From positions 1-64,000 of IMG/VR virus record IMGVR_UViG_3300035703_000044: a stretch of 64,000 bases of DNA; one strand, given 5' to 3'. This DNA is from a virus. Under the pieces are notes generated by a model. It had not been told where the DNA came from, ran no database searches, and saw only the letters and a list, made by a program, of their open reading frames with translations. The position numbers were made by a program, and so were the translations under genes. Numbering within the stretch: the first letter of the stretch is position 1; each line of letters opens with the position of its first letter. Positions 9,661 through 59,520 of the stretch are shown here, one piece after another.

Positions 9661-9719
9661 ATTCATTACTTTGGGGTGCAATTTATTACTAAATATAAAA
9701 AGATCCTTGATATCATTTG

Positions 9720-11450
9720 ATGAAATCCCAGTTCACCAAATTTACTCATAAAACTCCACATCTTGGAAAAAAACAACATCAACTTGATCCCAATTTGGAT
9801 CTAAAACAGTTGGTACATCACTCAACTGTTCAGTATGTTGATCGTGATGCTGATGGAGATGTGGACGTTTATGATAATCCTAAAAAACCAGTTCCTGATG
9901 AAAATCCAATTAAAGATTTTGACACAGTTTCAAAAAAATTAATTGCAAAACAAAAAGGTGAAATTAAACATACTCGCAGAGGTATGGCGTATGAGGATCT
10001 TCGTAAATGGTTTGGAACTGGTGGAGAAGGTGGAGTAGGTGGTGGAGGATGGGATCGTTATAATACAAAAGGTGAAAGAATTGGCAAATGTGCTCGTGAA
10101 CCTGGAGAGGGTAAACCAAAATGTCTTTCAAAAGAAAAGGCATCAAAGATGTCCAAGGATGAAATTGCTGCTGCAGTAAGAAGAAAAAGAAAAGCAGATC
10201 CTGTAGCAGATCGTCCAGGAAAAGGAGGAAAACCAAAAATGGTATCCAATAAAATCAAAGAAGAAACACACGATTCTTCTCTTCCTGATTGGAATGGACC
10301 AATGTTTTCAGTAAATGAAAAGAGATTTTGTCCAAAATGCCAAAAAAATGAAACCCAAATGGAATGTAGGTATGGTCCAAAATATTGGGCATTATATTCA
10401 TTACCATCATCAATAGTCACAAATCAAATGAAATACGACATCGCTCAACTTCATCCAGCAAATGAACAAAAAGATCATGAACACTCTATGGCTCGTTCTG
10501 AACTTTCTACGGTGATGAATGCGGCTAAGAGACTTAAGAAAAAAATGGGTAAAGGAGAAGGTAATATTGAAGCATGGGTACAATCAAAAATTACCAAGGC
10601 TGCAGATTATCTTGATGCGGCCGCAGATTACTTAGATAGTGGTGAACATAATGTTCATGGATCTATGGATGAAGAAAAAGGACCTTGTTGGACAGGATAC
10701 AAACAAGTTGGAATGAAGAAAAAAGGAAAAAGAATGGTTCCAAATTGTGTACCCGAACATACTGGAATTGTCGGAAAGATTCTTGAACAGATTGCTGGAG
10801 AAGAGGAACTTCAAACTCTCGAAGAAAAGAATGTTCCTACCAATCCCGCACTTTGGTCTAAAATGAAATCCAGAGCAAAAGCAAAGTTTGATGTTTATCC
10901 TTCCGCATATGCAAATGGTTGGGCAGCTAAAGAATATAAGAAAGCTGGTGGCGGATGGAAATCAGTAAGTGAGGAAGTTGAACTTGAGGAAGCAGTAAGA
11001 ATTCCATCAAAAACTGGAAACTTAGTACACGTAATGTTGACTTGGAAAGGTAAGTATTATTCACTCAAGATGTTCTTCCCACAAGTATCTCTTCCAAGTA
11101 GAAAGGATGTTCAAGATCAAGTTGAAAAGGTGTATCCAGGATCTAAAGTCCAATCATATCATGTAGTAGAGTATCAACCAGGAGAGCCAATTGTTCATAC
11201 TGAAGGTGCTGCTTGGACACGTAGAGAAGGACAAAACAAAGAAGGTGGACTTAATGAGAAAGGACGTAAATCTTACGAAAGAGAAAATCCAGGATCTGAT
11301 CTTAAGGCACCAAGTAAGAAGGTTGGAAATCCCCGCAGGGCATCATTCTGTGCAAGGATGCAAGGAATGAAGAAGAAACTTACTTCTTCAAAAACTGCTA
11401 ACGATCCAAATAGCAGAATCAACAAAAGTTTGCGTGCGTGGAATTGTTGA
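9720..11450 (+). CDS. Basic multi-domain protein with DUF5872/DUF6321-like segments
   Basis: 576 residues from ATG 9720 (an in-frame TTG at 9717 is less likely). Visible modules: an Asp-rich calcium-loop-like motif DRDADGDVDVYDN (about 43-55); a segment WDRYNTKGERIGKCAREPGEG followed by KCLSKEKA and RRKRKADP that I associate with DUF5872; a Cys-containing FCPKCQKNETQMEC pair; a VYPSAYANGWAAKEYKK segment; and a C-terminal basic RRASFCARMQGMKKKL module (DUF6321-like). Family names are from memory. The strongly basic modules suggest a DNA-associated, head-internal protein. It lies between tail decoration genes and gp17; biochemical function is unknown. Confidence 0.7.
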   Translation: MKSQFTKFTHKTPHLGKKQHQLDPNLDLKQLVHHSTVQYVDRDADGDVDVYDNPKKPVPDENPIKDFDTVSKKLIAKQKGEIKHTRRGMAYEDLRKWFGTGGEGGVGGGGWDRYNTKGERIGKCAREPGEGKPKCLSKEKASKMSKDEIAAAVRRKRKADPVADRPGKGGKPKMVSNKIKEETHDSSLPDWNGPMFSVNEKRFCPKCQKNETQMECRYGPKYWALYSLPSSIVTNQMKYDIAQLHPANEQKDHEHSMARSELSTVMNAAKRLKKKMGKGEGNIEAWVQSKITKAADYLDAAADYLDSGEHNVHGSMDEEKGPCWTGYKQVGMKKKGKRMVPNCVPEHTGIVGKILEQIAGEEELQTLEEKNVPTNPALWSKMKSRAKAKFDVYPSAYANGWAAKEYKKAGGGWKSVSEEVELEEAVRIPSKTGNLVHVMLTWKGKYYSLKMFFPQVSLPSRKDVQDQVEKVYPGSKVQSYHVVEYQPGEPIVHTEGAAWTRREGQNKEGGLNEKGRKSYERENPGSDLKAPSKKVGNPRRASFCARMQGMKKKLTSSKTANDPNSRINKSLRAWNC

Positions 11451-11451
11451 T

Positions 11452-11772
11452 ATGAAAACATTCAAACAGTTTTTAGAAGAAAGCATCAACATCTCCGGAG
11501 ATTTCAACGGAACTTTGATTGTTGGTGGAAATAATCAACCAGAATCTCAGACAGAAGAGTTTTCTGCAGATATAGTTTATATGGGAAATATCCATAGAAT
11601 TTCTATGGTAACTGAAAATGGTATTCCATCAAAACTAGATCTTACAGAATATCTTCAAGATGAATATCCAGGTTCTATTGTTCAGCATATATACGTTAAA
11701 GAGAACTCAAAAGGTTCTATTCGAGTAACAGACGATAAAAGATATCATCCCGCAAAATTAGATTGGATTTAA
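11452..11772 (+). CDS. Small protein with T4-like capsid-targeting N-terminus
   Basis: 106 residues from ATG 11452; an in-frame GTG at 11434 lies inside the previous gene. The first 11 residues, MKTFKQFLEES, closely resemble the T4 internal-protein capsid-targeting peptide (MKTYQEFIAEA) and contain an L-x-E site of the kind cut by prohead protease gp21. The remainder is a small mixed domain (IVYMGNIHRISMVTENG, then YLQDEYPGSIVQHIYV) that I do not recognise. An ejected or internal head protein is a reasonable inference. The same N-terminal style recurs at 48653. Confidence 0.65.
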   Translation: MKTFKQFLEESINISGDFNGTLIVGGNNQPESQTEEFSADIVYMGNIHRISMVTENGIPSKLDLTEYLQDEYPGSIVQHIYVKENSKGSIRVTDDKRYHPAKLDWI

Positions 11773-17304: not shown

Positions 17305-18969
17305 ATGGCAAAATTATTTGGATTCTCTATTGAGGATACTGAACCACTATCACCGAGTACAGTCAGTCCTGTTCCTCCAAATAATGAGGATGGGACTGAC
17401 CACTACTTGAGTAGTGGTTTTTTTGGTTCTTATGTAGATATTGAAGGTGTTTATAGAACTGAGTTTGATCTTATTAAAAGATATCGTGAGATGGCACTTC
17501 ATCCAGAATGTGATAGTGCCATTGAAGATATTGTTAATGAAGCAATTGTATCGGATACAAATGATAGTCCAGTTCAAATAGATCTGGATAATCTGAACGC
17601 AAGTGATGGTATTAAGAAAAAAATTAGAGATGAGTTTAAGTATATTTTAGAATTATTAGACTTTGATAAAAAGTCGCACGAAATTTATAGAAACTGGTAT
17701 GTTGATGGTAGATTATATTATCACAAGGTAATTGATCTCAAAAATCCACACGAAGGAATTCAAGAACTTCGTTACATTGACGCACTTAAGATGCGTTATG
17801 TTAGACAAAATAAGAAGAAGAAAGATGATCATCTTCGTTTAGCGAATATGAGATCTGATAATCCTATGGATTATGAGTTCCCAGAAATCGAAGAGTACTT
17901 CATTTATAGTCCAAAGACTGCATATCCAACACAGAATCCAACAGCTTCTGGTGCAAATAATGGAATTAAGATGTCGAAAGATTCCATTACATACTGCACA
18001 TCTGGTCTTGTGGATAGGAATAAAGGATCAACTCTTTCATATCTCCATAAGGCAATCAAAGCACTCAATCAACTTCGAATGATTGAGGACTCTCTCGTTA
18101 TCTATCGTTTATCTAGAGCACCAGAAAGAAGAATTTTCTACATTGATGTGGGCAATCTTCCTAAGGTCAAAGCGGAACAATATCTCAGAGATGTTATGAT
18201 GAGATATCGTAATAAGTTGGTTTATGATGCCAACACCGGTGAGATTCGTGATGATAAGAAATATATGAGTATGCTCGAAGATTTTTGGTTGCCTCGTCGT
18301 GAAGGTGGTAGAGGAACTGAAATCTCAACACTTCCTGGTGGACAAAATCTTGGAGAAATTACTGATATTAAGTATTTTCAAGAAAAACTCTATCGTTCTC
18401 TGAACGTTCCAACCTCAAGAATTGGTGGAGATGGTGGATTTAATCTTGGACGTTCATCAGAAATTCTGAGAGATGAACTTAAATTTAGTAAGTTTGTTGG
18501 TCGTTTGAGAAAGAGATTCTCAAATATGTTTAGTGATATGTTGAGAACGCAATTGATTCTCAAGAACATTATCACTCCAGAAGATTGGGAGATCATGAAT
18601 GAACATATTCAATATGACTTCTTATATGACAATCACTTCTCGGAACTTAAAGAAGCAGAACTTCTCAATGAAAGATTGAGTCTTGCAGCAACTGCAGAAC
18701 CTTATGTTGGCAGATACTTCTCTCAAGATTATTTGAGAAGAAAGGTTCTTCGTCAGACTGATCAGGAGATTATTGAACAAGATCTGTTAATTAAGAAAGA
18801 AATTGAAGAAGGTATTATTCCAGATCCATCCCAAATGCAAATTGATCCTGCAACAGGACAACCAATTCCAGTGGAAGATGCGGGTATGAATTTAGGTAAA
18901 CCTGTAGTAGAACCAGATTTAGGATCTCAGGAAAAATCTGTAGAAATTCCGAAGGGTGGGGAAATTTAA
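17305..18969 (+). CDS. gp20: Portal vertex protein gp20
   Basis: 554 residues, close to T4 gp20 (524). Recognisable blocks include HPECDSAIEDIVNEAIV, the stretch RAPERRIFYIDVGNLPK and LPGGQNLGEITDIKYFQEKLY, all conserved in T4-like portals. gp20 forms the dodecamer through which DNA enters, nucleates prohead assembly and docks gp17 and the gp13/14 neck. The C-terminal tail (about 500-554) is variable and acidic. It follows gp19 behind a late-type box. Confidence 0.97.
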   Translation: MAKLFGFSIEDTEPLSPSTVSPVPPNNEDGTDHYLSSGFFGSYVDIEGVYRTEFDLIKRYREMALHPECDSAIEDIVNEAIVSDTNDSPVQIDLDNLNASDGIKKKIRDEFKYILELLDFDKKSHEIYRNWYVDGRLYYHKVIDLKNPHEGIQELRYIDALKMRYVRQNKKKKDDHLRLANMRSDNPMDYEFPEIEEYFIYSPKTAYPTQNPTASGANNGIKMSKDSITYCTSGLVDRNKGSTLSYLHKAIKALNQLRMIEDSLVIYRLSRAPERRIFYIDVGNLPKVKAEQYLRDVMMRYRNKLVYDANTGEIRDDKKYMSMLEDFWLPRREGGRGTEISTLPGGQNLGEITDIKYFQEKLYRSLNVPTSRIGGDGGFNLGRSSEILRDELKFSKFVGRLRKRFSNMFSDMLRTQLILKNIITPEDWEIMNEHIQYDFLYDNHFSELKEAELLNERLSLAATAEPYVGRYFSQDYLRRKVLRQTDQEIIEQDLLIKKEIEEGIIPDPSQMQIDPATGQPIPVEDAGMNLGKPVVEPDLGSQEKSVEIPKGGEI

Positions 18970-18975
18970 TAAATA
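18968..18975 (+). promoter_or_regulatory. Late promoter AATAAATA before the gp67-like gene
   Basis: AATAAATA overlaps the gp20 stop codon, 26 bases before the ATG at 19001. Confidence 0.4.
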
Positions 18976-19000
18976 AGTCAGACTATTATTGATTACAACA

Positions 19001-19180
19001 ATGGATGAATTAATGGATATGATTGTTACTGATGAGAGTCCATCTCAAATCAGTGACAAAATCAAAGATCTTTTGTTTGCAAAGGCATCGGAAAGAGTGG
19101 ATTCTTTTAAACCTCATGTTGCAGACTCTCTCTTTGGTGGAGAACCCGAAGAAGAAACTGAAGACTACGAAGAATCATAA
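19001..19180 (+). CDS. Small acidic protein, candidate prohead core gp67
   Basis: 59 residues from ATG 19001 (an in-frame TTG at 18989 is unlikely). The sequence is helical at the start (MDELMDMIVTDESPSQISD) and ends in a strongly acidic tail (GGEPEEETEDYEES). T4 places the small acidic core protein gp67 exactly between gp20 and gp21, so synteny, size and charge support a gp67 equivalent, although sequence identity to T4 gp67 is not evident by eye. It would be part of the scaffold that gp21 degrades. Confidence 0.6.
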   Translation: MDELMDMIVTDESPSQISDKIKDLLFAKASERVDSFKPHVADSLFGGEPEEETEDYEES

Positions 19181-19479: not shown

Positions 19480-20130
19480 ATGAAACTCATCAGAGAAGAA
19501 ATCGAACAGGTCGAATTTATCGTTGAAAACAAGAACGGTAAAAAGTCACTTTTCATCGAAGGAGTTTTTCTCCAGGGTAACATTAAGAACCGTAATGGTC
19601 GTATGTATCCTATGGAAACTCTTCGTCGTGAAGTTGCTCGTTATAATGAGAACCATGTTGCTCAAGGTAGAGCACTTGGAGAACTTGGACATCCAGATGG
19701 TCCAACCGTAAATCTGGATAGAGTTTCTCACAAGATTGTTTCTCTGAGAGAGAGTGGTTCAAACTTCATCGGAAAAGCAAAGATTCTTTCAACCCCAATG
19801 GGTAAGATTGCAGAATCTCTAATTTCCGAAGGTGTAAAACTTGGAGTTTCTTCTCGTGGTATTGGATCTCTCCGTATGACGAGAGAAGGAATTAATGTTG
19901 TTGGTGAAGACTTTATGCTTGCAACTGCTGCTGATATCGTTGCAGATCCTTCTGCTCCTGATGCATTCGTTGAAGGTATCATGGAAGGAAAAGAATGGGT
20001 ATGGGATGGTGGTATTCTGCGTGAAAAATATGCAGAAAAAACCTACAAGACCATTAATACTCTTGTAGATCAAAAGAGATTGGATGAGAATAAGTTGAAC
20101 TTATTCAACGACTTTCTCGCAAATCTTTAA
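19480..20130 (+). CDS. gp21: Prohead core protease gp21
   Basis: 216 residues, matching T4 gp21 (212). The conserved blocks of the T4-type serine protease are present: NRNGRMYP (about 38-44), GELGHPDGP with His 71, and KLGVSSRGIGSL with the serines near 124-125. It matures the capsid by cutting scaffold, gp23 and internal proteins after [LI]-x-E sites, several of which are visible in proteins of this window. It starts four bases after the preceding gene stop and lies upstream of its substrate gp22. Confidence 0.95.
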   Translation: MKLIREEIEQVEFIVENKNGKKSLFIEGVFLQGNIKNRNGRMYPMETLRREVARYNENHVAQGRALGELGHPDGPTVNLDRVSHKIVSLRESGSNFIGKAKILSTPMGKIAESLISEGVKLGVSSRGIGSLRMTREGINVVGEDFMLATAADIVADPSAPDAFVEGIMEGKEWVWDGGILREKYAEKTYKTINTLVDQKRLDENKLNLFNDFLANL

Positions 20131-20132
20131 TT

Positions 20133-20140
20133 TATAAATA
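20133..20140 (+). promoter_or_regulatory. Late promoter TATAAATA (perfect) upstream of gp22
   Basis: An exact T4 late box 38 bases before the gp22 ATG, just after the gp21 stop. An AACGGAGAG ribosome-binding stretch follows. Since no box precedes gp23, gp22 and gp23 are probably made from this promoter. Confidence 0.7.
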
Positions 20141-20177
20141 AATATAGTTTAAAACTAAGGTTAAACGGAGAGTTCAA

Positions 20178-21260
20178 ATGTCTCGTGGAGATTTACAAGA
20201 AATGGAAGTAGGCACTAAGCAATCCAAAACCGCCGTTAATGCTAATGCAAAGGCGGCAGAAGCGATGCCTAAATTATCAGATCCAGGTACTCAACTCGGT
20301 TCTGTAGAAGATCTTGGTGGCCCTACACCAGAAAACTATAGATCTGACGACGATTCAGCTAAGCTGAAGACTCCTGGTGCCACTCTTAAACAAGTAAGAG
20401 ATGTTGTAAACAAAGGCGCTAAGGCTGCTGATGCCATGAAGGGTATGAAGGAAGAAGAGGAACTGGAGGATGAAAACATTATCTCCGAGACCGAAGAAGT
20501 AGAAGAAGAAGTTGTAGAAGAAGAGACCTCTGAAGAATATGACATCGAAGAAGATGTTAATGCTCTTCTGGGTGGTGAAGACCTCTCTGAGGAATTTAAA
20601 GAAAAGGCAAAGACCATCTTTGAAGCTGCTCTGACTGCTAAGGTTGGAGAAATCAAAGAGGCTCTTGAAGCACAATATGAAGAAAGACTTGTAGAAGAAG
20701 TCGAAGAAATTAAAGAAGCACTTGCACAAAGAGTAGATTCTTATCTTGAGTACGTTGCTGACGAATGGTTCACCGAAAATGAACTGGCGGTCGAGCAAGG
20801 TCTTAAGACTGAAATGACCGAATCATTCCTTGAAGGAATGAAGGGTCTTTTTGAAGCACATTATGTATCAATCCCTGAAGATAAATATGATGTTCTTGAG
20901 AGCATGGTAGAAAAACTTGATGACATGGAGACAAAACTCAACGAGCAGATTGAGAAGAACATTCATCTTAACCAAAGACTCGCAGAGTCGGTTGCTGATG
21001 GAATCTTCGATGAGATTTCTGAGGGCCTTGCTGCTACTCAGAAAGAGAAGCTCGCTTCACTTGCCGAAAGTGTTGAGTTTGAAAGTGAAGAAGAATATCG
21101 TGAAAAACTGGAGATGCTGAAGGAATCATATTTCCCAGCAAATAAAACTCCTAAAGCGCATACTGAATCCCTTTCTGAGGGTGTAGACCATTCAACCGAA
21201 TCTATTTCGGGACCAATGGCTGCATACCTGAAGACTCTTCAGGCTGTTGCTAAGAACTGA
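20178..21260 (+). CDS. gp22: Prohead scaffold protein gp22
   Basis: 360 residues, highly charged and almost entirely helical. An N-terminal polar region precedes an acidic stretch (about 95-130, runs of Glu) and a long coiled coil (about 140-320). The segment FLEGMKGLFEAHYVSIPEDKYDV is shared with T4-like gp22 scaffolds. The major core protein shapes the prohead and is then degraded by gp21. Gene order 21-22-23 is conserved. T4 gp22 is shorter (269); the N-terminal ~90 residues account for the difference. Confidence 0.93.
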   Translation: MSRGDLQEMEVGTKQSKTAVNANAKAAEAMPKLSDPGTQLGSVEDLGGPTPENYRSDDDSAKLKTPGATLKQVRDVVNKGAKAADAMKGMKEEEELEDENIISETEEVEEEVVEEETSEEYDIEEDVNALLGGEDLSEEFKEKAKTIFEAALTAKVGEIKEALEAQYEERLVEEVEEIKEALAQRVDSYLEYVADEWFTENELAVEQGLKTEMTESFLEGMKGLFEAHYVSIPEDKYDVLESMVEKLDDMETKLNEQIEKNIHLNQRLAESVADGIFDEISEGLAATQKEKLASLAESVEFESEEEYREKLEMLKESYFPANKTPKAHTESLSEGVDHSTESISGPMAAYLKTLQAVAKN

Positions 21261-21304
21261 ATTTAATATTAATCAAACGTAAACATTCACAAAGGTACAC
21301 GCAA

Positions 21305-22738
21305 ATGTTCCATTCCGAGCATCTGCAGGAAAAGTGGGCACCTCTCCTCAACTATGAGGGTCTTGATCCAATCAAAGATTCCCATCGTAGAGCGGTAACC
21401 GCAGTCCTGCTGGAAAACCAAGAAAAGTTTTTAAGAGAAGAGTCCGCATTTAGCAGCGGATTCAACCTGATGGAAACCCCAACCAACTCAGCTAACGCAG
21501 CTGGTGCTTCTGGTGGTTTCAGTGGTAGTTCTGCTGCTGCAGGTCCTACCGCAGGTTTCGATCCCGTTCTGATCTCACTGATCAGACGTTCAATGCCTAA
21601 CCTGGTTGCATATGACCTGGCTGGCGTTCAACCAATGAGTGGTCCTACTGGACTCATCTTTGCAATGCGTTCGCGTTACAACAACCAGAGCGGAACCGAG
21701 GCATTCTTCAACGAGGCCGATACCGCATTCTCTGGTCAGGATGATGGTAACAACCTCACCGCAGGTTTCACCGACGTTGTTGCTGGTCTTGGTACTACTT
21801 CACAGTCTGGTACTAACCCCGCAATCCTGAACCCAGTTGGAACCGCTACCTCAACCGCATATGATGTCGGTCAGGGTATGGTTACTGGTGACGCAGAGAA
21901 TCTTGGTTCTGCTGCTGGCGATCAGTTCAACCAGATGGCATTCTCGATCGAGAAAGTCACCGTTACTGCAAAGTCACGCGCACTGAAGGCTGAGTACTCA
22001 CTTGAGCTCGCTCAGGACCTGAAGGCAATCCACGGTCTGAATGCAGAAGCAGAACTCGCTAACATTCTGTCAAGCGAGATTCTTGCTGAGATCAACCGTG
22101 AGGTTATCAGAACCATCTACAAGATTGCTGAACAGGGTGCTGTTGAGAACGTTTCTACTCAGGGTGTATTTGACCTCGATATCGACTCCAACGGTCGTTG
22201 GTCGGTTGAGAAGTTCAAGGGTCTTCTGTTCCAGATCGAAAGAGATGCAAACAGAATCGCTCAGAGAACTCGTCGTGGAAAGGGTAACATCATCATGTGT
22301 TCAGCTGACGTTGCTTCAGCACTGACCATGGCTGGTGTTCTCGATTACACCCCTGCTCTGAACGCAAACCTGAACGTTGATGACACCGGCAACACCTTTG
22401 CTGGTACTATCAACGGTAAGTACAGAGTCTACATTGACCCATATTCTGCAAACCTGGCTGCTGATAACGGTGGTCTGGCACAGGGTACTAACCAATACTA
22501 CGTTGTTGGTTATAAGGGTTCCAGTGCATATGATGCTGGTCTCTTCTATTGCCCATATGTACCTCTGCAGATGGTACGTGCTGTTGGAGAGGATACCTTC
22601 CAACCAAAAATTGGCTTCAAGACCCGTTATGGTATTGTTGCCAACCCATTCGCAGAAGGAACCGATCAAGGTCTGGGTCGTCTGCGCGTCAACAGCAACC
22701 GTTACTACAGACGTGTTGCAATCAAAAATCTCATGTGA
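21305..22738 (+). CDS. gp23: Major capsid protein gp23
   Basis: 477 residues with the HK97-fold gp23 signature: PNLVAYDLAGVQPMSGPTG, EYSLELAQDLKAIHGL and the C-terminal KIGFKTRYGIVANPF. T4 gp23 is 521 residues. A gp21-type site L-M-E (residues 55-57) fits removal of an N-terminal propeptide of about 57 residues (T4 cuts at 65). Codons are visibly shifted to C-ending forms (AAC, ACC, ATC, TAC) compared with neighbours, as expected for the most abundant virion protein. A strong terminator follows 21 bases after the stop. Confidence 0.98.
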   Translation: MFHSEHLQEKWAPLLNYEGLDPIKDSHRRAVTAVLLENQEKFLREESAFSSGFNLMETPTNSANAAGASGGFSGSSAAAGPTAGFDPVLISLIRRSMPNLVAYDLAGVQPMSGPTGLIFAMRSRYNNQSGTEAFFNEADTAFSGQDDGNNLTAGFTDVVAGLGTTSQSGTNPAILNPVGTATSTAYDVGQGMVTGDAENLGSAAGDQFNQMAFSIEKVTVTAKSRALKAEYSLELAQDLKAIHGLNAEAELANILSSEILAEINREVIRTIYKIAEQGAVENVSTQGVFDLDIDSNGRWSVEKFKGLLFQIERDANRIAQRTRRGKGNIIMCSADVASALTMAGVLDYTPALNANLNVDDTGNTFAGTINGKYRVYIDPYSANLAADNGGLAQGTNQYYVVGYKGSSAYDAGLFYCPYVPLQMVRAVGEDTFQPKIGFKTRYGIVANPFAEGTDQGLGRLRVNSNRYYRRVAIKNLM

Positions 22739-43333: not shown

Positions 43334-44696
43334 GTTTCTAATTCTTAGGAACCTATTACATAATGAAGAATACATTCGTAAGGTAATACCATTTCTAAAA
43401 TCTGAGTATTTTGAAGATACAAATCAAAGAATTGTCTTTGAAGAAATTCTATCCTTCATCCAAGAATACAATCAACCTGCAACTAAAGAAGTTCTTTGTA
43501 TTGAGGTAGAAAATCGTAAAGACATTAATGACACTTCTTTTAAGGAAATCGTTCATCTTATCAATAATTTGGATAATGTTCCTGTTGAACTGGAGTGGTT
43601 GATTGATACTACTGAAAAGTGGTGTCGTGATCGTGCAATCTACATCGCACTTATGGAATCAATCCATATTGCAGATGGTAAAGATGAGAAAAAGAATCGT
43701 GATAGTATTCCAAGTATTCTTTCAGATGCCTTATCAGTATCTTTCGATACACACATCGGACACGATTATCTGTTAGACTACGAACAACGTTATGAGTCCT
43801 ATCATAGAAAGGAAGAGAAAATTGAATTCGACCTTGAATATTTTAACAAGATCACAAAAGGTGGTTTACCTAATAAGACTCTTAATATCGCTCTGGCTGG
43901 TACGGGTGTCGGAAAGAGTCTCTTTATGTGCCATGTTGCTTCTTCCGTCTTATTGCAAGGCCGCAACGTTCTCTACATCACTCTTGAGATGGCGGAGGAA
44001 CGAATTGCTGAAAGAATTGATGCAAACCTCCTGAACGTTCCTATTCAAGATATTGGTAACCTTCCAAAACAGATGTTTGAAAGTAAGGTAACCAATCTTT
44101 CCAAGAAAACTCAAGGTACTTTGATTATTAAAGAGTACCCTACTGCATCTGCACACTCTGGACATTTCAAGTCTCTTCTGAATGAACTTGCATTGAAGAA
44201 GTCTTTCCGTCCTGATATCATCTTTATTGACTATCTGAACATCTGTGCATCTTCGAGATACAAAGGTAATCTTTCTGTGAACTCTTATTCTTATATTAAG
44301 GCAATTGCAGAAGAACTTCGTGGTCTTGCAGTGGAGTTTAATGTTCCTATTGTAAGTGCCACTCAGACAACTCGTTCTGGTTATGGTAGTTCTGATGTGG
44401 AACTGACTGATACCTCAGAAAGTTTTGGTCTCCCTGCTACTGCTGACTTGATGTTTGCGTTGATTTCTACAGAAGATTTGGAAGGTCTTGGTCAAATTCT
44501 AGTCAAACAACTTAAGAACCGATATAATGACCCTACCATTCATAAGCGTTTCGTGATTGGTATTGATCGCGCTAAGATGCGTCTTTATGACTGCGAACAA
44601 TCTGCTCAACAAGATATCCTTGACAATGGAAAGGATGAGGAGTATGATTATGAAGAAAAGAAACCAAAGAAAACATTTGAGGGATTTAAATTCTGA
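43320..44696 (+). CDS. gp41: Replicative helicase gp41
   Basis: 458 residues (T4 gp41: 475). DnaB-type: Walker [12 protein letters not shown] (191-201), H1a-like [20 protein letters not shown], Walker [11 protein letters not shown] (about 295), and [23 protein letters not shown] near 345-370. An acidic C-terminal tail ends in [12 protein letters not shown]. It moves 5'-3' on the lagging strand and recruits primase gp61, which is encoded at 52966, not adjacent. Confidence 0.97.
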
Positions 44697-46387: not shown

Positions 46388-47059
46388 ATGGATACCAAAG
46401 ATCTTAAGGGTTTGATGGAAGCATATTCTGAAGTTTATGCTCCTCAAGAAGTTGATGAAGCACTAGATAAGAGATTTGATTCAATGAGAAAGCGTGGTGG
46501 AAGAAGTGCTCCTCCAGAAGAGCGTTCTGTTGGTGGTGAAATGAATAGAAAAAATAAAGATTATTGGGCAGATACTCTAGGTAAAGGTAGAGATAGAGGA
46601 AAGGGCAGTAAAGCAGCAAGAAGAGTAGCAGCACTTAAGAATGAAGAACTTGATATCTTTGACGTGGTTCTTGAGTTTCTCCAAGTAGAAGGGTTTGCAG
46701 AAACTCTGGAAGAAGCAGAGTGGATGATGGCGAATGTGATTGATGAGGAAGCAATTGGTATTATTCTTGGTGAAGCTAATAAAGAAAATAAGCAAAAAAA
46801 GAACGATGCTATTTCTAAAATAATTCAGAAAAAACTTCATCCTTCAGTTTTACCATCATTAACTTATGGTAGAAGAGAATTGAAAAAAGAAGATTATGTA
46901 AATGAAGCACAACACGCTCGTGAGAACCCAGAGAAGTATGAAAGAGAGCAGGCAAAGAAATCTGCTCCTGTTCGTGGAGAAAGAACTCCTATGCCACCAA
47001 GAGGTGATAAGCGTAGAGAGGACTTTGAGAAGTGGTATGCTAAACAGATGGGTCGCTGA
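46388..47059 (+). CDS. Probable head-internal or core protein
   Basis: 223 residues from ATG 46388 (in-frame TTG at 46379 rejected). The N-terminus DTKDLKGLMEAYSEVYAPQ contains an L-M-E-A site of gp21 protease type. A Gly/Lys/Arg-rich stretch (GKGRDRGKGSKAARR) and an acidic helical segment (LEFLQVEGFAETLEEAEW) follow, and the C-terminus is basic. Late promoter, charge pattern and a cleavage-like site near the start suggest a processed internal head protein, though no family with known activity is recognised. Confidence 0.65.
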   Translation: MDTKDLKGLMEAYSEVYAPQEVDEALDKRFDSMRKRGGRSAPPEERSVGGEMNRKNKDYWADTLGKGRDRGKGSKAARRVAALKNEELDIFDVVLEFLQVEGFAETLEEAEWMMANVIDEEAIGIILGEANKENKQKKNDAISKIIQKKLHPSVLPSLTYGRRELKKEDYVNEAQHARENPEKYEREQAKKSAPVRGERTPMPPRGDKRREDFEKWYAKQMGR

Positions 47060-47231: not shown

Positions 47232-48626
47232 ATGTCTAGATTTTCTGGTAAGGATACAGAAACTTATACTGAGATCTTAGCTCAAGTTTGCTTAGCATAT
47301 TCTATATCTACAAATAAACCATTAACAAAAGGTGAGTTAATAACGGGATCAACTTTAAATCCAAAAGTTGTTTCTTTAATTAGTAGGTATATGATAACTC
47401 AATCTAGTGTTAATCTAACAAGAACTAGTTTTACTTCCGGATTTGTTGAATATATTAAAGGTGATGTTAGTTCTGGATTAAATTGGGTAGATGCTCAAGG
47501 TAGAAATATGATGGAGGTAAAGAAGAGATTTAAAATAGGAACAAAACATAAAGTTTATAATGATAAACTTTTTGAAGGAGGGCAGTCGGATAATAATCCA
47601 TATACTGCATTTTTGAGAGCAAAAACTGGAGCAAAAACTGATAAATGGAATCCTGCTGATATTTGGGTGATGAATTTGGAGGGAAGACAAGCATTAAAAA
47701 GATTGAATAGGAGAGTTCAAACAAGATCAAAAGTATCTCTTGAATATTGTAATCAATTTTTGGCAGATCAATTTTCTAAAGGTAATATCATTCCAATTTC
47801 TTTAAAAAAACCTCAAAAAACTCCACATATTGATATTGTTAATAGTAACGAATATGTAACTAGAATTTCTCTTGGAAAGTCTCCTAATCCTACAATTGAA
47901 TATGACTATGGAAATAAAGATGTGAAAATTAATTTTACTATTGAAACTGTTGAACTTGCCAAAGGACAAAAAGCATCAACAGCAAGAAGAAATCCGAATA
48001 GCATCACAGGTAAAGTAGTTCCTGGATCCGAAAAGCATATCAGGTTAAAATATCACGTAGACAATAAAAAAGTAGAACTTGAATATTCTCAAACTGGAAA
48101 GGGAATGAATTATGCTGCTGCAAAGATGGGAAATCTTGGTGCAGATAATTTTCAAAAAATTATTAATCAAACTTCAAGGCAGGGGGTAAATAAACTTAAT
48201 AACATTCAATCAAAATATGATGATATTGATATCAAAACTAATCCTTGGTTTAATGGAAAACAACTTGGTGTTGTTAAAGCAAGAAAAGAAGTTTCAAAAA
48301 TTGCTCCACATTATGATAGAATTGCAGAATATGTTGGTGAAATATGGAAAGAAATTAATGGAAACAATTTTGATTCTGGAAAAATGCGTGAACCAGACGC
48401 AATTTGGAGTAAAGCAAGAGCTGGTGAATTGGGATTATCTATACATTCCATTTCAAATGAGCAAGTTAAAAAACGAGTAATTCAAAATTTATATGAAGCA
48501 GCTGCTTCCATTAGTTACGTTACTGGATTAAATAAAGACGAAATGGAATTGGAGAAAGAAGTTGGTATGGATCCTTCTCCAAGAAAAACTAATTTTAATG
48601 CTAGTGTCTACGTAAAAGTATATTAA
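47232..48626 (+). CDS. Hypothetical protein with a KWNPADIW motif
   Basis: 464 residues, basic overall. The most distinctive feature is TDKWNPADIWVMN near residue 137-149, a motif I associate with restriction-endonuclease-like (PD-(D/E)XK-type) phage and defence proteins. An earlier acidic-Lys pattern (VDAQGRNMMEVKKRF, about 85-100) could supply other active-site residues. The C-terminal half has a helical domain (APHYDRIAEYVGEIWKEINGN) and ends in YITGLNKDE/ASVYVKVY-like strands. Base use is more A/T-rich than the core genes, suggesting an accessory gene. A nuclease is a hypothesis only. Confidence 0.6.
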   Translation: MSRFSGKDTETYTEILAQVCLAYSISTNKPLTKGELITGSTLNPKVVSLISRYMITQSSVNLTRTSFTSGFVEYIKGDVSSGLNWVDAQGRNMMEVKKRFKIGTKHKVYNDKLFEGGQSDNNPYTAFLRAKTGAKTDKWNPADIWVMNLEGRQALKRLNRRVQTRSKVSLEYCNQFLADQFSKGNIIPISLKKPQKTPHIDIVNSNEYVTRISLGKSPNPTIEYDYGNKDVKINFTIETVELAKGQKASTARRNPNSITGKVVPGSEKHIRLKYHVDNKKVELEYSQTGKGMNYAAAKMGNLGADNFQKIINQTSRQGVNKLNNIQSKYDDIDIKTNPWFNGKQLGVVKARKEVSKIAPHYDRIAEYVGEIWKEINGNNFDSGKMREPDAIWSKARAGELGLSIHSISNEQVKKRVIQNLYEAAASISYVTGLNKDEMELEKEVGMDPSPRKTNFNASVYVKVY

Positions 48627-48632
48627 TAAATA
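48625..48632 (+). promoter_or_regulatory. Late promoter AATAAATA before the 48653 gene
   Basis: AATAAATA overlaps the preceding stop, 28 bases before the ATG. Confidence 0.45.
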
Positions 48633-48652: not shown

Positions 48653-49945
48653 ATGAAGAGTTTTTTCCAATTTCTAACTGAGGCAAAAGAATCGCAAGCA
48701 TCCGCTCAAGCGAGGAAACTCAACCTCAAGAGTGATGGACACGGGGGATGGTATGATTCCCGTGGAGAATTTGTTGCGAAAACAGAAGCAGGAAAACTCA
48801 AGTTTTATGATAAGGGAGAAAAGGTAGGTCAGAAGGATCAACCAAAGGAACCCGCAGAAAAGGCAAAACCTGCAAAGAAACCAACTGCAAAACCACAACC
48901 AACTACAACAACTCAAAAGAAATCTCCAGCAAAACCAGAAGGAGAAGGTGGAACTGGAGAGATTAGTGATACTTTAACTGTTGCTTTTGGACGTTTCAAT
49001 CCACCAACAGTAGGACATGAGAAACTTTTAAAGTCTGCTAGTAAGGTTGCTACTGGTGGAGATCTTAAGATTTATCCTTCAAGAACTCAGGATCCTAAGA
49101 AGAATCCATTAGATCCTGATATGAAGATCTCGTTTATGAAAAAGATGTTCCCCGATTTTGAAGATAATATTATTAATGATGATGAGATGAAATCAATCTT
49201 TAATGTATTGATTGCAGCAGCAGAAGCAGGATATGCAAATGTTAATATTGTTGTAGGTTCTGATCGTCAAGCAGAATTTGAGAACCTTGCACAGAAATAC
49301 AATGGTGATCTTTATGACTTTGATCTTATTCGTGTCATCTCTGCAGGTGTGAGAGATGCTGATGCGGAGGGTGTATCGGGAATGTCTGCTTCCAAGATGA
49401 GAAAGGCTGTGATGGATGATGACTTTGAATCATTCCGTAAAGGAACTCCCAAGACTCTTGATGATGGTGATGCACGTTCTTTATTTGATGCAGTCCGTCA
49501 AGGAATGGGCGCAAAGAAATCTAAAGTTCAGAAAGAAGGATATGCTCTCTGGGAGATTGCTCCTAAGTTTGATATGTGGAATCTCCGTGAACATTATGTC
49601 ACCAAGAAAATCTTTAGAATTGGTGATATTGTTGAGAACTTAAACACTGGATTGGTTGGTGAAATCATTCGTAGAGGTGCAAATCATCTTATTTGTGTAA
49701 CTGAAGAGGGTTGGATGTTTAAGTCTTGGATTAAAGATGTGATGGAATATAATGAAGTTAAGATGGAAAGAAAGATGAGAGTTCCTGGAAAGCCAAACAC
49801 TTTGGTTGGAACTGGTGGATACTTTAAATATGTTGCTGATATGACTCCTGGATTTAATAAAGGTGACAAGATGAATCTTCAACCTGGAGCAAAACCTTAT
49901 AGTGGTATTAAGAATTTCATAAATAAGTATAAGGTCAAGAAGTAA
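48653..49945 (+). CDS. Nucleotidyltransferase-like protein with capsid-targeting peptide
   Basis: 430 residues. Residues 1-11 (MKSFFQFLTEA) match the T4 capsid-targeting peptide MKTYQEFIAEA, with an L-T-E gp21 site. A low-complexity Lys/Pro/Ala/Thr linker (about 60-100) follows. Residues about 108-260 form a HIGH-type nucleotidyltransferase domain: GRFNPPTVGH (113-122), a VVGSDRQ strand, then VSGMSASKMRKA (the S-x-[ST]-x-[IVM]-R-like second motif). The rest (about 310-430) has a small barrel-like region (FRIGDIVENLNTGLVGEIIRRG) and a basic tail. It is probably packaged in the head and injected. Substrate (NMN, cytidylyl or pantetheine type) is not known. Confidence 0.8.
   Translation: MKSFFQFLTEAKESQASAQARKLNLKSDGHGGWYDSRGEFVAKTEAGKLKFYDKGEKVGQKDQPKEPAEKAKPAKKPTAKPQPTTTTQKKSPAKPEGEGGTGEISDTLTVAFGRFNPPTVGHEKLLKSASKVATGGDLKIYPSRTQDPKKNPLDPDMKISFMKKMFPDFEDNIINDDEMKSIFNVLIAAAEAGYANVNIVVGSDRQAEFENLAQKYNGDLYDFDLIRVISAGVRDADAEGVSGMSASKMRKAVMDDDFESFRKGTPKTLDDGDARSLFDAVRQGMGAKKSKVQKEGYALWEIAPKFDMWNLREHYVTKKIFRIGDIVENLNTGLVGEIIRRGANHLICVTEEGWMFKSWIKDVMEYNEVKMERKMRVPGKPNTLVGTGGYFKYVADMTPGFNKGDKMNLQPGAKPYSGIKNFINKYKVKK
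49918..49925 (+). promoter_or_regulatory. Late promoter CATAAATA before the 49959 gene
   Basis: CATAAATA inside the last codons of the upstream gene, 34 bases before the next ATG. Confidence 0.4.
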
Positions 49946-49958
49946 CACACTTATACTC

Positions 49959-51146
49959 ATGTCAATGAACATCCTTAACGATATTTCTGCAGTCTATCTT
50001 CAACAGGTTGCTGAGAAGAAAGATGATTCATATCTTGAGAAAGATATGAAGAAACGTCACGAGAATAACGAGAAGGCTCGTGAAGAAATGAAGAGGACTA
50101 AGGCAAATAAGGATATGGTGAAGGCTGCCAGAAAGTCTATGGGTGTTGAAGATGATGATGACGATGATGATATCAACGAAGCAGTAAAAGGTGTTGATAC
50201 TGGAATGAGAAAAGCAGCATCTGCCGAAAGAAGATCGGGAGATAAGAGACTTGCTCCTTCTAAAGGAAAGGGGTATGCGGATCAACAAAAACAAAGTATT
50301 GCCTACATGGATAAGGTAACGAAGAAAAATAAAAATGTTGTTGGATTAGTAACTAAGGAAGCACTTGATCCAGTAGGGAAAGAGGATTCTGATATTGATA
50401 ATGATGGTGATACTGATAGTTCAGATAAGTATCTTCATAAGAGAAGAAAGGCAATTGGTAAGGCAATGAAAAAAGAAAAGATGAAAGAGTCTTTTTCAAA
50501 CTGGAGACAAGATCTTGCTGAAGTGATGGGTGATGTTGAATCAAACAAAGAAGTTAAAGAAAAGAAGGTCAATAATAAGATTAAGATTAATCCAGAGATG
50601 AAGGAGGCAGTTGAGGAACTTGGTGGTGAACTGATTGAGATGGTTGAACTTGATGAGAAGGCACTCAGCAAGCAACAACAAAAGTTTATGGGAATGGTTT
50701 ATGCTGTAAAGAAGGGTGAGATGAAAGCACCATCACCTGAAGTTGCAAAGGCAGCTGCAGGTATGAGTAAGAAATCTGCAAGAGACTTTGCAAAGACTAA
50801 ACATAAAGGACTCCCTCAAGTTAAAGAAGATGTTCTTAATGAAAGAGAACATGATGAACCAGGAGAAGGTCCAAGACAAAAATATGGCGATATGCGTGGT
50901 ATAGATAGAGGAACTGGTAATGAAGTAAAATTTGGTGGAAAGTGGCAAAGTAAAGAAAGAAAAGAAGCTGGTGCTGCAGCACTTGCTAAACTGAAGTCTA
51001 AAGAAAATGGAATACGTGAAATGGAAGAACCTACCATGGAACCATCACAAGATAAAACTAGTGATATGCAAAAGAAAAAAATTCAGGTTCAAAAGGTAAG
51101 AGACTTAACAACCAGATTACAGGCTGCAAGAAAAGGAGTTTATTAA
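49959..51146 (+). CDS. Highly charged protein with a DUF3008-like domain
   Basis: 395 residues, alternating acidic and basic, mostly disordered or helical. An Asp run (about 64-71), an EF-hand-like EDSDIDNDGDTDSSDKYL (about 141-158), and a well-defined DUF3008-type segment: SKQQQKFMGMVYAVKKGEMK, then SPEVAKAAAGMSKKSARDFA and KHKGLP (about 238-290). DUF3008 is a small basic domain found in phages and bacteria, function unknown. Charge and location beside the targeting-peptide protein suggest an internal head protein that binds DNA. ATG 49965 is an alternative start. Confidence 0.7.
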   Translation: MSMNILNDISAVYLQQVAEKKDDSYLEKDMKKRHENNEKAREEMKRTKANKDMVKAARKSMGVEDDDDDDDINEAVKGVDTGMRKAASAERRSGDKRLAPSKGKGYADQQKQSIAYMDKVTKKNKNVVGLVTKEALDPVGKEDSDIDNDGDTDSSDKYLHKRRKAIGKAMKKEKMKESFSNWRQDLAEVMGDVESNKEVKEKKVNNKIKINPEMKEAVEELGGELIEMVELDEKALSKQQQKFMGMVYAVKKGEMKAPSPEVAKAAAGMSKKSARDFAKTKHKGLPQVKEDVLNEREHDEPGEGPRQKYGDMRGIDRGTGNEVKFGGKWQSKERKEAGAAALAKLKSKENGIREMEEPTMEPSQDKTSDMQKKKIQVQKVRDLTTRLQAARKGVY

Positions 51147-51473: not shown

Positions 51474-51995
51474 ATGGCACTCTGGGGAAACAATGATAAT
51501 GTTGGTGCTGGTGGTTCAGTATCATTAAATTATTCTACCGGTGTTGTAACGGGAACTGGAACCACTTTTGGGCAGGTGGGAGCTGCAGCGACTGGTGATA
51601 TAATTAGATTTGGAAGTCGCTCTGGTATCTATTTCGGAGATGCTGTAATTGTTGGAATTGCTAGCACGACTCAACTTACTATTGGATCAACTGCTGGTCT
51701 TAGTGGTGCTGCAATTGCTTCTACATCATTTAGAGTAAGTCAACTTCCCAAGTATACTGTACTTGATTCTAAGTATAGTGAAGCTTCCTGGGGAACTGAT
51801 GATTCATATGTATATGGTGTCGCTGAAGGTGGACTGACGGCGGCAACTGGAACTTCATATGCACTTACCCATGGGGGTTGGGTTGGAGTTACCACTTATG
51901 TTGATGCCAATGGATCACTGAGAGTTAAATCTGAGACTCTCGTTGCAATGTCTGGTATCACTACTGGAAACACACCAGTATTTCCCCCTGCATGA
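51474..51995 (+). CDS. Putative virion structural protein
   Basis: 173 residues, Gly/Thr/Ser/Val-rich, beta. Recognisable repeating turns: VVTGTGTTFGQVGAAATGDIIRFG and AVIVGIASTTQLTIGSTAG, then GGWVGVTTYVDANGSLRVKSETLVAMSGI. I recall close relatives of the last block in cyanophage virion proteins. Perfect late promoter upstream. It is likely a head or tail decoration, function unknown. Confidence 0.75.
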   Translation: MALWGNNDNVGAGGSVSLNYSTGVVTGTGTTFGQVGAAATGDIIRFGSRSGIYFGDAVIVGIASTTQLTIGSTAGLSGAAIASTSFRVSQLPKYTVLDSKYSEASWGTDDSYVYGVAEGGLTAATGTSYALTHGGWVGVTTYVDANGSLRVKSETLVAMSGITTGNTPVFPPA

Positions 51996-52001
51996 TAATA
52001 T

Positions 52002-52394
52002 ATGATCTTCAATGAATTGAATGAGGACAACTTCCTCCTTTTTGCCATTAAGAATTATGAGAATCCTCAGGCCGTAACAAAAGAAGATTTTGATAAAGAT
52101 CTAAATCATTTCAAGTACATCAAAAGACTTTTGAAACGATATAGAAACACTGGGGAACTTAAGGTTCCCCTTTTGATCAATCACTTTATTGTTCTGTATA
52201 ATATCTTTGGTGAAGCAGCAACTCCGATGCTCTTTTTTAAGATAGAACGAGAACTCTGGTCCACGATGAAAACTTTTATATTATTCTTAAACAAGATACC
52301 AGAATATCCAAAATGTTATCTTCACGATATTCCCGTTGACTTAGATTGTTTAAAAGAACTCCAGAAGATTTTTAGGACAAATGAACAAACTTGA
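52002..52394 (+). CDS. Conserved cyanophage hypothetical protein
   Basis: 130 residues, all-helical prediction, with conserved-looking blocks (NELNEDNFLLFAIKNYENPQ, HFKYIKRLLKRY, LLINHFIVLYNIFG). I recall it as a common family of unknown function in cyanomyoviruses (possibly DUF7207). The basic central helix may bind nucleic acid. It starts six bases after the virion gene and overlaps the next small gene by 14 bases, leading into gp61. Confidence 0.7.
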   Translation: MIFNELNEDNFLLFAIKNYENPQAVTKEDFDKDLNHFKYIKRLLKRYRNTGELKVPLLINHFIVLYNIFGEAATPMLFFKIERELWSTMKTFILFLNKIPEYPKCYLHDIPVDLDCLKELQKIFRTNEQT

Positions 52395-52596
52395 TAGAAT
52401 TATTCGAATGATTCGTGAGCAGATGGTTGCAAATGCTCCTGGTACTTCTGGTGGTTTTACTGGTGCAGCAGATCCTAAAGGTCCAGTTGCTGGTTATGAT
52501 CCAACAATGAAGAGAAGAAAGTATGCTACAGGTGGAATTGGTAGTAGAAAACGCTGGTTAGATTACCTCAAATCCTCCAATGGCAGAAGAAATTAG
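52381..52596 (+). CDS. Small virion-like protein
   Basis: 71 residues. A short N-terminal helix with basic face (MNKLDRIIRMIREQ) is followed by a Gly-rich loop (NAPGTSGGFTGAADPKGP) and a strongly basic C-terminus (KRRKYATGG, GSRKRWLDYLKSSNGRR). The composition resembles small internal or decoration proteins. It overlaps both neighbours. Function is not known. Confidence 0.6.
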   Translation: MNKLDRIIRMIREQMVANAPGTSGGFTGAADPKGPVAGYDPTMKRRKYATGGIGSRKRWLDYLKSSNGRRN

Positions 52597-57447: not shown

Positions 57448-57603
57448 ATGCCTAAAAATCAACTCACTAAAGACGAACTGAAGGTTCGTGTATTAAAACT
57501 AAAAGATAGATTGCACAAGGACCAACCAAGTTGGGACTCTAAAGGACTTGCTCATAAATATCTGAATGAAGTTCTTGACATTATTGATGAGTATAGGTAC
57601 TAG
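57448..57603 (+). CDS. Small hypothetical protein (51 aa)
   Basis: A 51-residue frame, mostly helical and charged (KDELKVRVLKLKDRLHKDQ, GLAHKYLNEVLDIIDEYR). It starts two bases past the terminator T-run without a Shine-Dalgarno sequence, and its end overlaps the GIY-YIG gene. Similar short proteins occur in cyanophages to my memory. No function is assigned. Confidence 0.6.
   Translation: MPKNQLTKDELKVRVLKLKDRLHKDQPSWDSKGLAHKYLNEVLDIIDEYRY
57553..57560 (+). promoter_or_regulatory. Late-type box CATAAATA before GIY-YIG gene 3
   Basis: CATAAATA inside the 57448 gene, 27 bases before ATG 57587; it resembles the placement of late boxes before the other two homing endonucleases but may be chance coding sequence. 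Confidence 0.3.
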
Positions 57604-58045
57604 TTGCAGTTATAATAATGGGTGGAAATATAAGAAACCTGAAGGACAATGTTTCGAGTCTGAAGACATAGGGGATAATTTTGGGTTTGTTTATCTCATT
57701 ACAAACAAGATAAACTCCAAACAATACATAGGACGGAAATATTTCTGGCAGTTTAGGACCCCCAAAGGGAAAAAACGTAAAGTAAAATCAGAGTCTAATT
57801 GGAAGGATTACTATGGGTCTTGCCCAGAACTTAAAGAAGATATTGAAAAATACGGCAGAGAAAATTTTGTTAGAGTTATTCTCTCATTACATAAAACAAA
57901 GGGCAAAACAAACTTTGAAGAGACAAGACAACTCTTCTGCCACAACGTCCTCACGGAATCACTTGACAACGGGGAACCAGCCTTCTACAATAGCAACATC
58001 CTCAACAGGTACTTCCGAAAAGATTACTATGGAAACACAGATTGA
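57587..58045 (+). CDS. GIY-YIG endonuclease, Seg-like (third copy)
   Basis: 152 residues from ATG 57587 (ATG 57566 adds seven residues). The nuclease core is FGFVYLITNKINSKQYIGRKYFW with the paired GFVYL/QYIGR of the family, then Arg/Lys-rich residues and NWKDYYGSCPELKEDIEKYG, followed by ENFVRVILSLHKTKG and a Glu region (TNFEETRQLF). No NUMOD3 repeats are visible, so it differs from the two copies in the replication block. Relatives of this shorter form are frequent in T4-like phages. Whether it is mobile is not shown. Confidence 0.8.
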   Translation: MSIGTSCSYNNGWKYKKPEGQCFESEDIGDNFGFVYLITNKINSKQYIGRKYFWQFRTPKGKKRKVKSESNWKDYYGSCPELKEDIEKYGRENFVRVILSLHKTKGKTNFEETRQLFCHNVLTESLDNGEPAFYNSNILNRYFRKDYYGNTD

Positions 58046-59448: not shown

Positions 59449-59520
59449 CCTCTGGTAGTCTATTGGTAAGGACACCCCGACAAGGGAGTTGGAAATTGGG
59501 TTCGATTCCCAGACAGAGGT
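59449..59520 (+). tRNA. Degenerate tRNA-like sequence, isotype undetermined
   Basis: Acceptor CCTCTG pairs with CAGAGG (seventh pair mismatched), D arm GTCT/GGAC and T arm TTGGG-TTCGATT-CCCAG are normal. The anticodon arm is abnormal: the region CACCCCGACAAGGGAG gives only a partial CCC/GGG stem, with a six-base loop lacking the usual T33. A GAC (Val) or CAA (Leu) anticodon could be argued; neither is convincing. It may be a decayed tRNA, an unusual one, or a sequencing error. Confidence 0.55.

Follow-up and report, generated by a model that had tools for sequence, protein, structure and literature searches.

A probable T4-like capsid-targeting peptide on a conserved nucleotidyltransferase of T4-like cyanophages

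Bacteriophage T4 loads its head with internal proteins. IPII and IPIII, which are small basic proteins expressed late, both start with MKTYQEFIAE/A in the GenBank T4 sequence (the slash marks the cleavage point), and the site in the T4 capsid protein gp23 reads FLTE/AEIGG. Ten residues of IPIII are enough for packaging, mutations of residues 4 and 7 affect targeting while those of residues 8 and 10 affect processing, and cleavage by gp21 in T4 falls after L/I-x-E (review of Black's work, PMC9026906). T4 Alt, an ADP-ribosyltransferase with a short N-terminal propeptide (MELITELFDE), is likewise carried in the head and is injected.

Here we analysed a window of 64,000 nucleotides, part of a 93,764-base IMG/VR virus record of a marine T4-like cyanophage; its nearest relatives among sequenced phages are the T4-like cyanophages Bellamy, S-SM2 and S-SCSM1. 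The window encodes a 430-residue protein matching the PHROG_395 'cytidyltransferase' profile (E 5.8e-102); matches to it occur in 559 phage records, and in 378 of these they span 80% or more of the protein. Its gene lies between gp41/mazG and gp61/nrdA, as it does in P-SSM2, S-SM1 and S-SCSM1, and the P-SSM2 and S-SM1 orthologues at this position are labelled T4-GC190, listed as a cyanophage core gene by Sullivan et al. 2010 (PMC3037559). The protein is thus placed in PHROG_395/T4-GC190 both by sequence homology and by the gene order that it shares with annotated members. S-SCSM1 ORF91 (QFG06348.1) is essentially the same protein, with the same locus and N-terminal peptide and 65% identity over the full length; T4 has no homologue. 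The open reading frame and the motifs picked out in the initial annotation are real: MKSFFQFLTEA occupies residues 1-11, GRFNPPTVGH residues 113-122 and SGMSASKMR residues 242-250.

Table 1. Positions of the nucleotidyltransferase gene, its parts and associated genes (in the window unless another sequence is named).
Feature	Positions	Strand	Basis or remark
gp21 prohead protease, expected to cut the peptide	19480..20130	+	phrog_207, E 3.4e-83
gp22 scaffold, expected binding partner of the peptide	20178..21260	+	phrog_237, E 1.6e-116
gp23 major capsid protein, possible L-M-E/T maturation site after residue 57	21305..22738	+	phrog_138, E 2.7e-169
Cassette gene, N-terminus MDTKDLKGLMEAYSEVY, possible L-M-E/A site	46388..47059	+	corresponds to S-SCSM1 ORF89, a virion protein; preceded by a late motif (22 bp upstream)
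Cassette gene	47232..48626	+	position of S-SCSM1 virion protein ORF90
Late promoter motif AATAAATA	48625..48632	+	20 bp before the nucleotidyltransferase start codon
Nucleotidyltransferase gene	48653..49945	+	ATG start, 430 aa plus stop; PHROG_395 / T4-GC190
Capsid-targeting peptide MKSFFQFLTE, predicted gp21 cut between E10 and A11	48653..48682	+	T4 IPII/IPIII comparison, conservation, T4 mutational data
Folded N-terminal module, residues 15-52, DGHGGWYD	48695..48808	+	conserved; pLDDT 93-95
Disordered low-complexity linker, residues 56-103	48818..48961	+	pLDDT mostly 41-52
HIGH-type nucleotidyltransferase domain, residues 104-290	48962..49522	+	AlphaFold2, PDB fold search, PF01467
Active-site motif 1, GRFNPPTVGH (T/HxGH)	48989..49018	+	G, R, F, N, P, P, G, H identical in 81/81 homologues
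Active-site motif 2, SGMSASKMR (S/T-x-x-R type)	49376..49402	+	G243, S245, A246, S247, R250 identical in 81/81
SH3-like C-terminal domain, residues ~310-366	49580..49750	+	five strands; less ordered tail after
Cassette gene, DIDNDGDTDSSDKYLHKRR and DUF3008-like parts	49959..51146	+	counterpart of S-SCSM1 virion ORF92/93; late motif 33 bp upstream
Cassette gene	51474..51995	+	corresponds to S-SCSM1 ORF95, a virion protein; preceded by a late motif (31 bp upstream)
D-rich / DUF3008-like charged proteins	window 49959-51146, 9717-11450; L087 5001-8066; L389 24422-25843		
DUF6267-type proteins	L083 2730-3923; L084 2323-3579; L085 2781-3980; L087 4103-4999; L338 461-1654		

An AlphaFold2 model built with 81 homologues predicted a small N-terminal module, a disordered linker, a confident nucleotidyltransferase domain and an SH3-like domain. 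The low-complexity linker that the initial annotation had placed before the enzyme therefore holds for residues ~56-103, whereas residues 15-52 form a conserved and confidently folded module; the small basic domain it had proposed at the other end was found as a five-strand SH3-like domain (~310-366) followed by a less ordered tail. Its reading of a nucleotidyltransferase fold with an intact active site was upheld by the model, by fold search and by the invariant motifs, together with PF01467, which was detected in 79 of the 81 homologues (best E 2.6e-11). A PDB fold search with the model returned PPAT, NadD and NadM at E about 3e-5, and the fold plus the T/HxGH and S-x-S/T-x-x-R motifs, common to NadD, NadM, NadR and CoaD/PPAT, identify a member of the HIGH-type superfamily. 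Because of the fold match, the prevalence of PF01467 and the (nearly) invariant motifs in 81 sequences, the protein is likely to be an active adenylyl- or nucleotidyltransferase.

A narrower assignment as NMNAT, PPAT or cytidylyltransferase was rejected, since the window protein scored under every curated cut-off in the specific-profile search (for the NMN/NaMN profiles, 13.2 bits against a cut-off of 164 for NF006479 and 11.9 against 112 for TIGR00482) and PDB sequence searches with it returned nothing significant. Profiles for NadD, NadR and CoaD match many of the 81 members, weakly; identity to the NMN/NaMN adenylyltransferases and CoaD/PPAT in the fold match is 10-17%, and domains added at both its N- and C-terminal ends set the window protein apart from NadD, NadM, NadR and CoaD. 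This leaves the published label NMNAT unestablished for the protein. As a guess, and a doubtful one, the enzyme may adenylylate NMN, NaMN or some related small phosphorylated molecule, which would raise or restore NAD-type cofactors early in infection; a second guess is that a partner or nucleic acid is the probable ligand of the SH3-like domain.

T4 Alt acts on host RNA polymerase, and a packaged and injected nucleotidyltransferase might similarly modify a host macromolecule, protein or RNA, rather than a cofactor. The sub-threshold cofactor-specific profiles, the attached SH3-like domain and tail, and the presence of protein kinases among other same-locus proteins in S-CRM01 and MA10 would all fit such a role. 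Against it, the best profile and fold matches are small-molecule adenylyltransferases, and protein adenylylation is not known to us for any HIGH-type enzyme of this class; we regard this alternative as unlikely.

The window protein presents F4, F7, L8 and E10, followed by Ala11, at the positions critical in T4, and its FLTE/A is also the sequence of the T4 gp23 site. Among 133 distinct homologue N-termini, columns 2, 4, 7, 8, 10 and 11 were conserved and columns 3, 5, 6, 9, 12 and 13 variable: the targeting residues F4 and F7 were found in 126 and 132 N-termini respectively, and in the putative gp21 motif L8-T9-E10/A11, L or I occupied position 8 in 125 and E10 was present in 130. E10 was also retained in 151 of 159 complete close orthologues. 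Like IPII and IPIII, the protein thus begins with ten residues that agree at the key positions and lead into an L/I-x-E/A gp21 site; it differs from them in its cargo, a nucleotidyltransferase. Like Alt, it would be a head-borne enzyme whose N-terminus is a short propeptide; Alt differs in fold and chemistry, its propeptide resembles the window peptide less than that of IPIII does, and injection, known for Alt, is predicted for the window protein.

A search pattern derived from T4 IPII/IPIII (M, 1-2 residues, [FYL]xxF[LIFM]xE) proved rare: in whole cyanophage genomes carrying 209-317 genes it picked out 1, 1, 2, 3 and 5 genes, and in the window 2 of 76. The nucleotidyltransferase was among the matching genes in each of the six T4-like cyanophage sequences scanned. 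The only other strict match in the window, MKTFKQFLEESINISGDFNG, begins a 106-residue protein (phrog_1742, 11452-11772, plus strand) upstream of the terminase genes; this is a possible second internal protein, and its S-SCSM1 relative (44215-44535) was not detected in virions. In T4 the pattern also fits, besides IPII and IPIII, a 54-residue open reading frame starting MKTFKEFIKED (18966-19130, minus strand; L370-L378).

The peptide persists across three protein architectures, with spacers of 17-23, 83-85 and 87-138 residues. In homologues of the Melnitz type (Methylophilales-phage type), MKKFSEIIEA sits directly on the enzyme, 17-23 residues before the FGR motif (73 of 74); in those of the S-RIM2 type it is followed by a different spacer of 83-85 residues (80 of 80), and the protein extends to 1,021 residues. 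The peptide is also borne by the S-SM1 and S-SCSM1 family members and by proteins of S-WAM1 (MRFRQFIIEA) and S-CRM01 (MKLFNQFFKEA). Given its retention in both the Melnitz and S-RIM2 types and the constancy of E10, comparison of the sequences rules out chance as the source of the peptide. Untagged nucleotidyltransferases occur in MED4-213, ACG-2014j, S-CAM1 and S-RIM44; all of these except MED4-213 encode the SH3-like domain as a gene of its own, whose product starts MKDFKKLRE and, speculatively, may itself carry a tag. The jumbo coliphage 121Q encodes a bare, untagged homologue of 177 residues.

The cyanomyovirus late promoter consensus is NATAAATA (PMC2984593). This motif occurred 25 times on the coding strand of window positions 1-64000 and never on the other strand, and 18 of the 25 copies lay within 60 bp upstream of an open reading frame start. 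At promoter distance it was found for none of 25 replication genes (23.8-46.3 kb) compared with four of six cassette genes (46.3-52 kb; p=5e-4), and for 8 of 25 genes in the structural block. Since the motif is one-stranded and mostly lies just 5′ of structural and cassette genes, its copies allow late genes to be located from sequence, and the copy upstream of the nucleotidyltransferase points to late expression. Of 128 orthologues whose upstream regions differ from one another, 81 have the motif there, compared with 2.5% of windows drawn at random; it is missing at that position from the S-RIM2 and Melnitz types.

S-SCSM1 ORFs 89-97 are the syntenic counterpart of the nucleotidyltransferase cassette, and among them 89, 90, 91 (the nucleotidyltransferase), 92, 93, 95 and 97 are annotated virion proteins. 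The machinery expected to handle the peptide is also at hand, as gp20, gp21, gp22 and gp23 are all encoded inside the window (gp21 to gp23 at 19480-22738). Cyanomyoviruses lack gp67 and gp68 (PMC2984593), and heads missing these proteins and the T4 internal proteins might employ the window protein as a core or DNA-condensing component, the nucleotidyltransferase fold being kept for its shape; the low-complexity, charged virion proteins that neighbour it in the cassette and its own lysine-rich linker are in keeping with such a role. However, a purely structural protein would not readily account for catalytic motif residues that are identical in 81 divergent homologues, or for free-standing homologues in jumbo phages that lack the head modules, and we consider this explanation quite unlikely.

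Several features of this neighbourhood were recorded in passing. A 71-residue protein (52381-52596, plus strand; phrog_696 major head protein, E 1.3e-7) resembles gp23 just past its likely cleavage site (ASGGFSG..GPTAGFDP against TSGGFTG..GPVAGYDP), and its S-SCSM1 counterpart is an annotated virion protein. Several charged proteins contain recurring stretches, one of D-x-D-x-D-G-D type (DIDNDGDTDSSDKYLHKRR) and one DUF3008-like, and the S-RIM2 nucleotidyltransferase has the D-rich one fused to it. In many relatives the nucleotidyltransferase adjoins a DUF6267-type protein with an invariant KWDGAP motif; KWDGAP(A) is like the KxDG of nucleic-acid ligases, and an RNA-ligase reading is a matter of motif resemblance. 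The proposal that the gene at 47232-48626 encodes a PD-(D/E)XK nuclease (WNPADIW...ISLKK) was unsupported, the model being of low confidence and giving no fold match. A link to NAD through a neighbouring 'NAD synthetase' (57566-58045) was dropped, as that protein also matches homing endonucleases and its label looks erroneous. Other likely annotation errors are an SH3-like fragment named 'ribonucleotide reductase alpha subunit' (L391 2049-2306) and an S-SM1 DNDGD protein named 'cytidyltransferase' (L389 24422-25843), and a tRNA-like gene in a tRNA cluster (59449-59520, plus strand) has an anomalous two-base anticodon call.

The presence of the family in virions is already published, from 2010 on: it was found in purified S-SM1 particles (PMC3037559), in S-SCSM1 virions as the 65%-identical ORF91 by mass spectrometry (PMC9602691), in S-CREM2 virions with 3 peptides (PMC10665884) and in S-SZBM1 virions with 2 peptides (PMC9146016). 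Could the protein be an ordinary cytoplasmic metabolic enzyme, detected through carry-over and resembling a tagged protein for another cause? The family is absent from the S-PM2 virion protein list, and carry-over was warned of by the S-CREM2 (PMC10665884) and S-SCSM1 (PMC9602691) authors. Enrichment of the tag among all S-SCSM1 virion proteins was not significant (strict pattern, 1/48 against 1/234; loose pattern, 4/48 against 6/234, p=0.07), and therefore the tag alone does not define the virion set. These points, with the 2-3 peptides in two of the proteomes and the untagged clade, count against packaging and for a cytoplasmic enzyme. Conversely, the conserved positions are exactly those for targeting and cleavage in T4, detection was independent in four phages, and a late promoter motif precedes the gene, whose neighbours correspond to virion proteins, so that a cytoplasmic enzyme seems highly improbable.

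Taken together, the initial annotation's claim that a T4-like capsid-targeting peptide ending in an L-T-E gp21 site directs packaging is well supported because of the match to T4 mutational data, conservation across architectures, the presence of gp21, gp22 and gp23 in the window, the late motif and the published mass spectrometry of the orthologue. Every defining feature of a T4 targeted internal head protein that can be tested on sequence was found. We consider it probable that the protein is a T4-style internal head protein bearing an enzyme, which is packaged, cut by gp21, injected and active at once. In this model the protein would be made late in infection from its own promoter, and its first ten residues, by analogy with T4 IPIII experiments, would attach to the scaffold core and bring the protein into the prohead. 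There gp21 would cut after L-T-E, at E10, leaving a mature protein that starts at Ala11 and presumably stays with the packaged DNA, as the orthologues in virions purified by others suggest. It would then be ejected with the DNA into the next cell, where its working part, an apparently active HIGH-type adenylyl- or nucleotidyltransferase, could act immediately. For S-SCSM1 QFG06348.1, the predicted mature N-terminus is AAESGASVQAK, beginning after E10, and the fully tryptic peptide is EAAESGASVQAK. In the literature searched, whose coverage was incomplete so that an earlier description may exist elsewhere, we found no mention of the tag on a cyanophage nucleotidyltransferase and no reading of S-SCSM1 ORF91 as a targeted, processed head protein. 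What is new for this known protein is the support for how it is delivered.

The DGHGGW module also occurs in other same-locus proteins: the MA10 Ser/Thr kinase (twice, as variants), its 973-residue neighbour and S-CRM01 g128. The S-CRM01 genome has five tagged genes, among them g127 (the nucleotidyltransferase), g129 and g130; the hypergeometric p=1.7e-4 for the clustering of these three is only indicative, because the interval was picked after the clustering had been seen. The S-CRM01 Ser/Thr kinase PKN8 (g130) shares with the window protein the locus, a tag-like MISFDQFLSE and a GFGYW-type variant of the module, and differs in its catalytic domain and in having Lys, not Ala, after the site. 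A Ser/Thr kinase is listed in S-CRM01 virions according to a report as cited in PMC10665884. Tag-like N-termini at the S-CRM01 locus (L338 2142-6268) comprise MISFDQFLSE of the kinase, MKKLDQFLTE, LDSFIKEA and MKLFNQFFKEA, those at the MA10 locus (L337 4479-9678) MKELSKFLRE and FSSFLKEA, and at both loci the DGHG module is found on several different proteins. Tentatively, the gp41/mazG-gp61/nrdA stretch of T4-like cyanophages may be an island of head-packaged, injected effectors that deliver an enzyme cocktail before transcription. Exchangeable enzymes would there carry a T4-type targeting peptide, often with the DGHGGW module, the cargoes being the nucleotidyltransferase in nearly all, protein kinases in S-CRM01 and MA10, and possibly others.

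A 'cytidylyltransferase' has been known in purified cyanophage particles since 2010, with the reason for its presence unstated and later authors unable to exclude contamination. A tag that matches the T4 head-address label would explain the repeated appearance of the family in purified particles, and the conserved peptide with its predicted cleavage point supplies a reason that can be checked in existing mass-spectrometry data. If true, a group that ranks among the commonest marine phages would inject a nucleotide-handling enzyme into Synechococcus and Prochlorococcus together with its DNA, the enzyme would arrive ahead of the phage's own gene expression, and the tag would allow further injected enzymes to be predicted from sequence.
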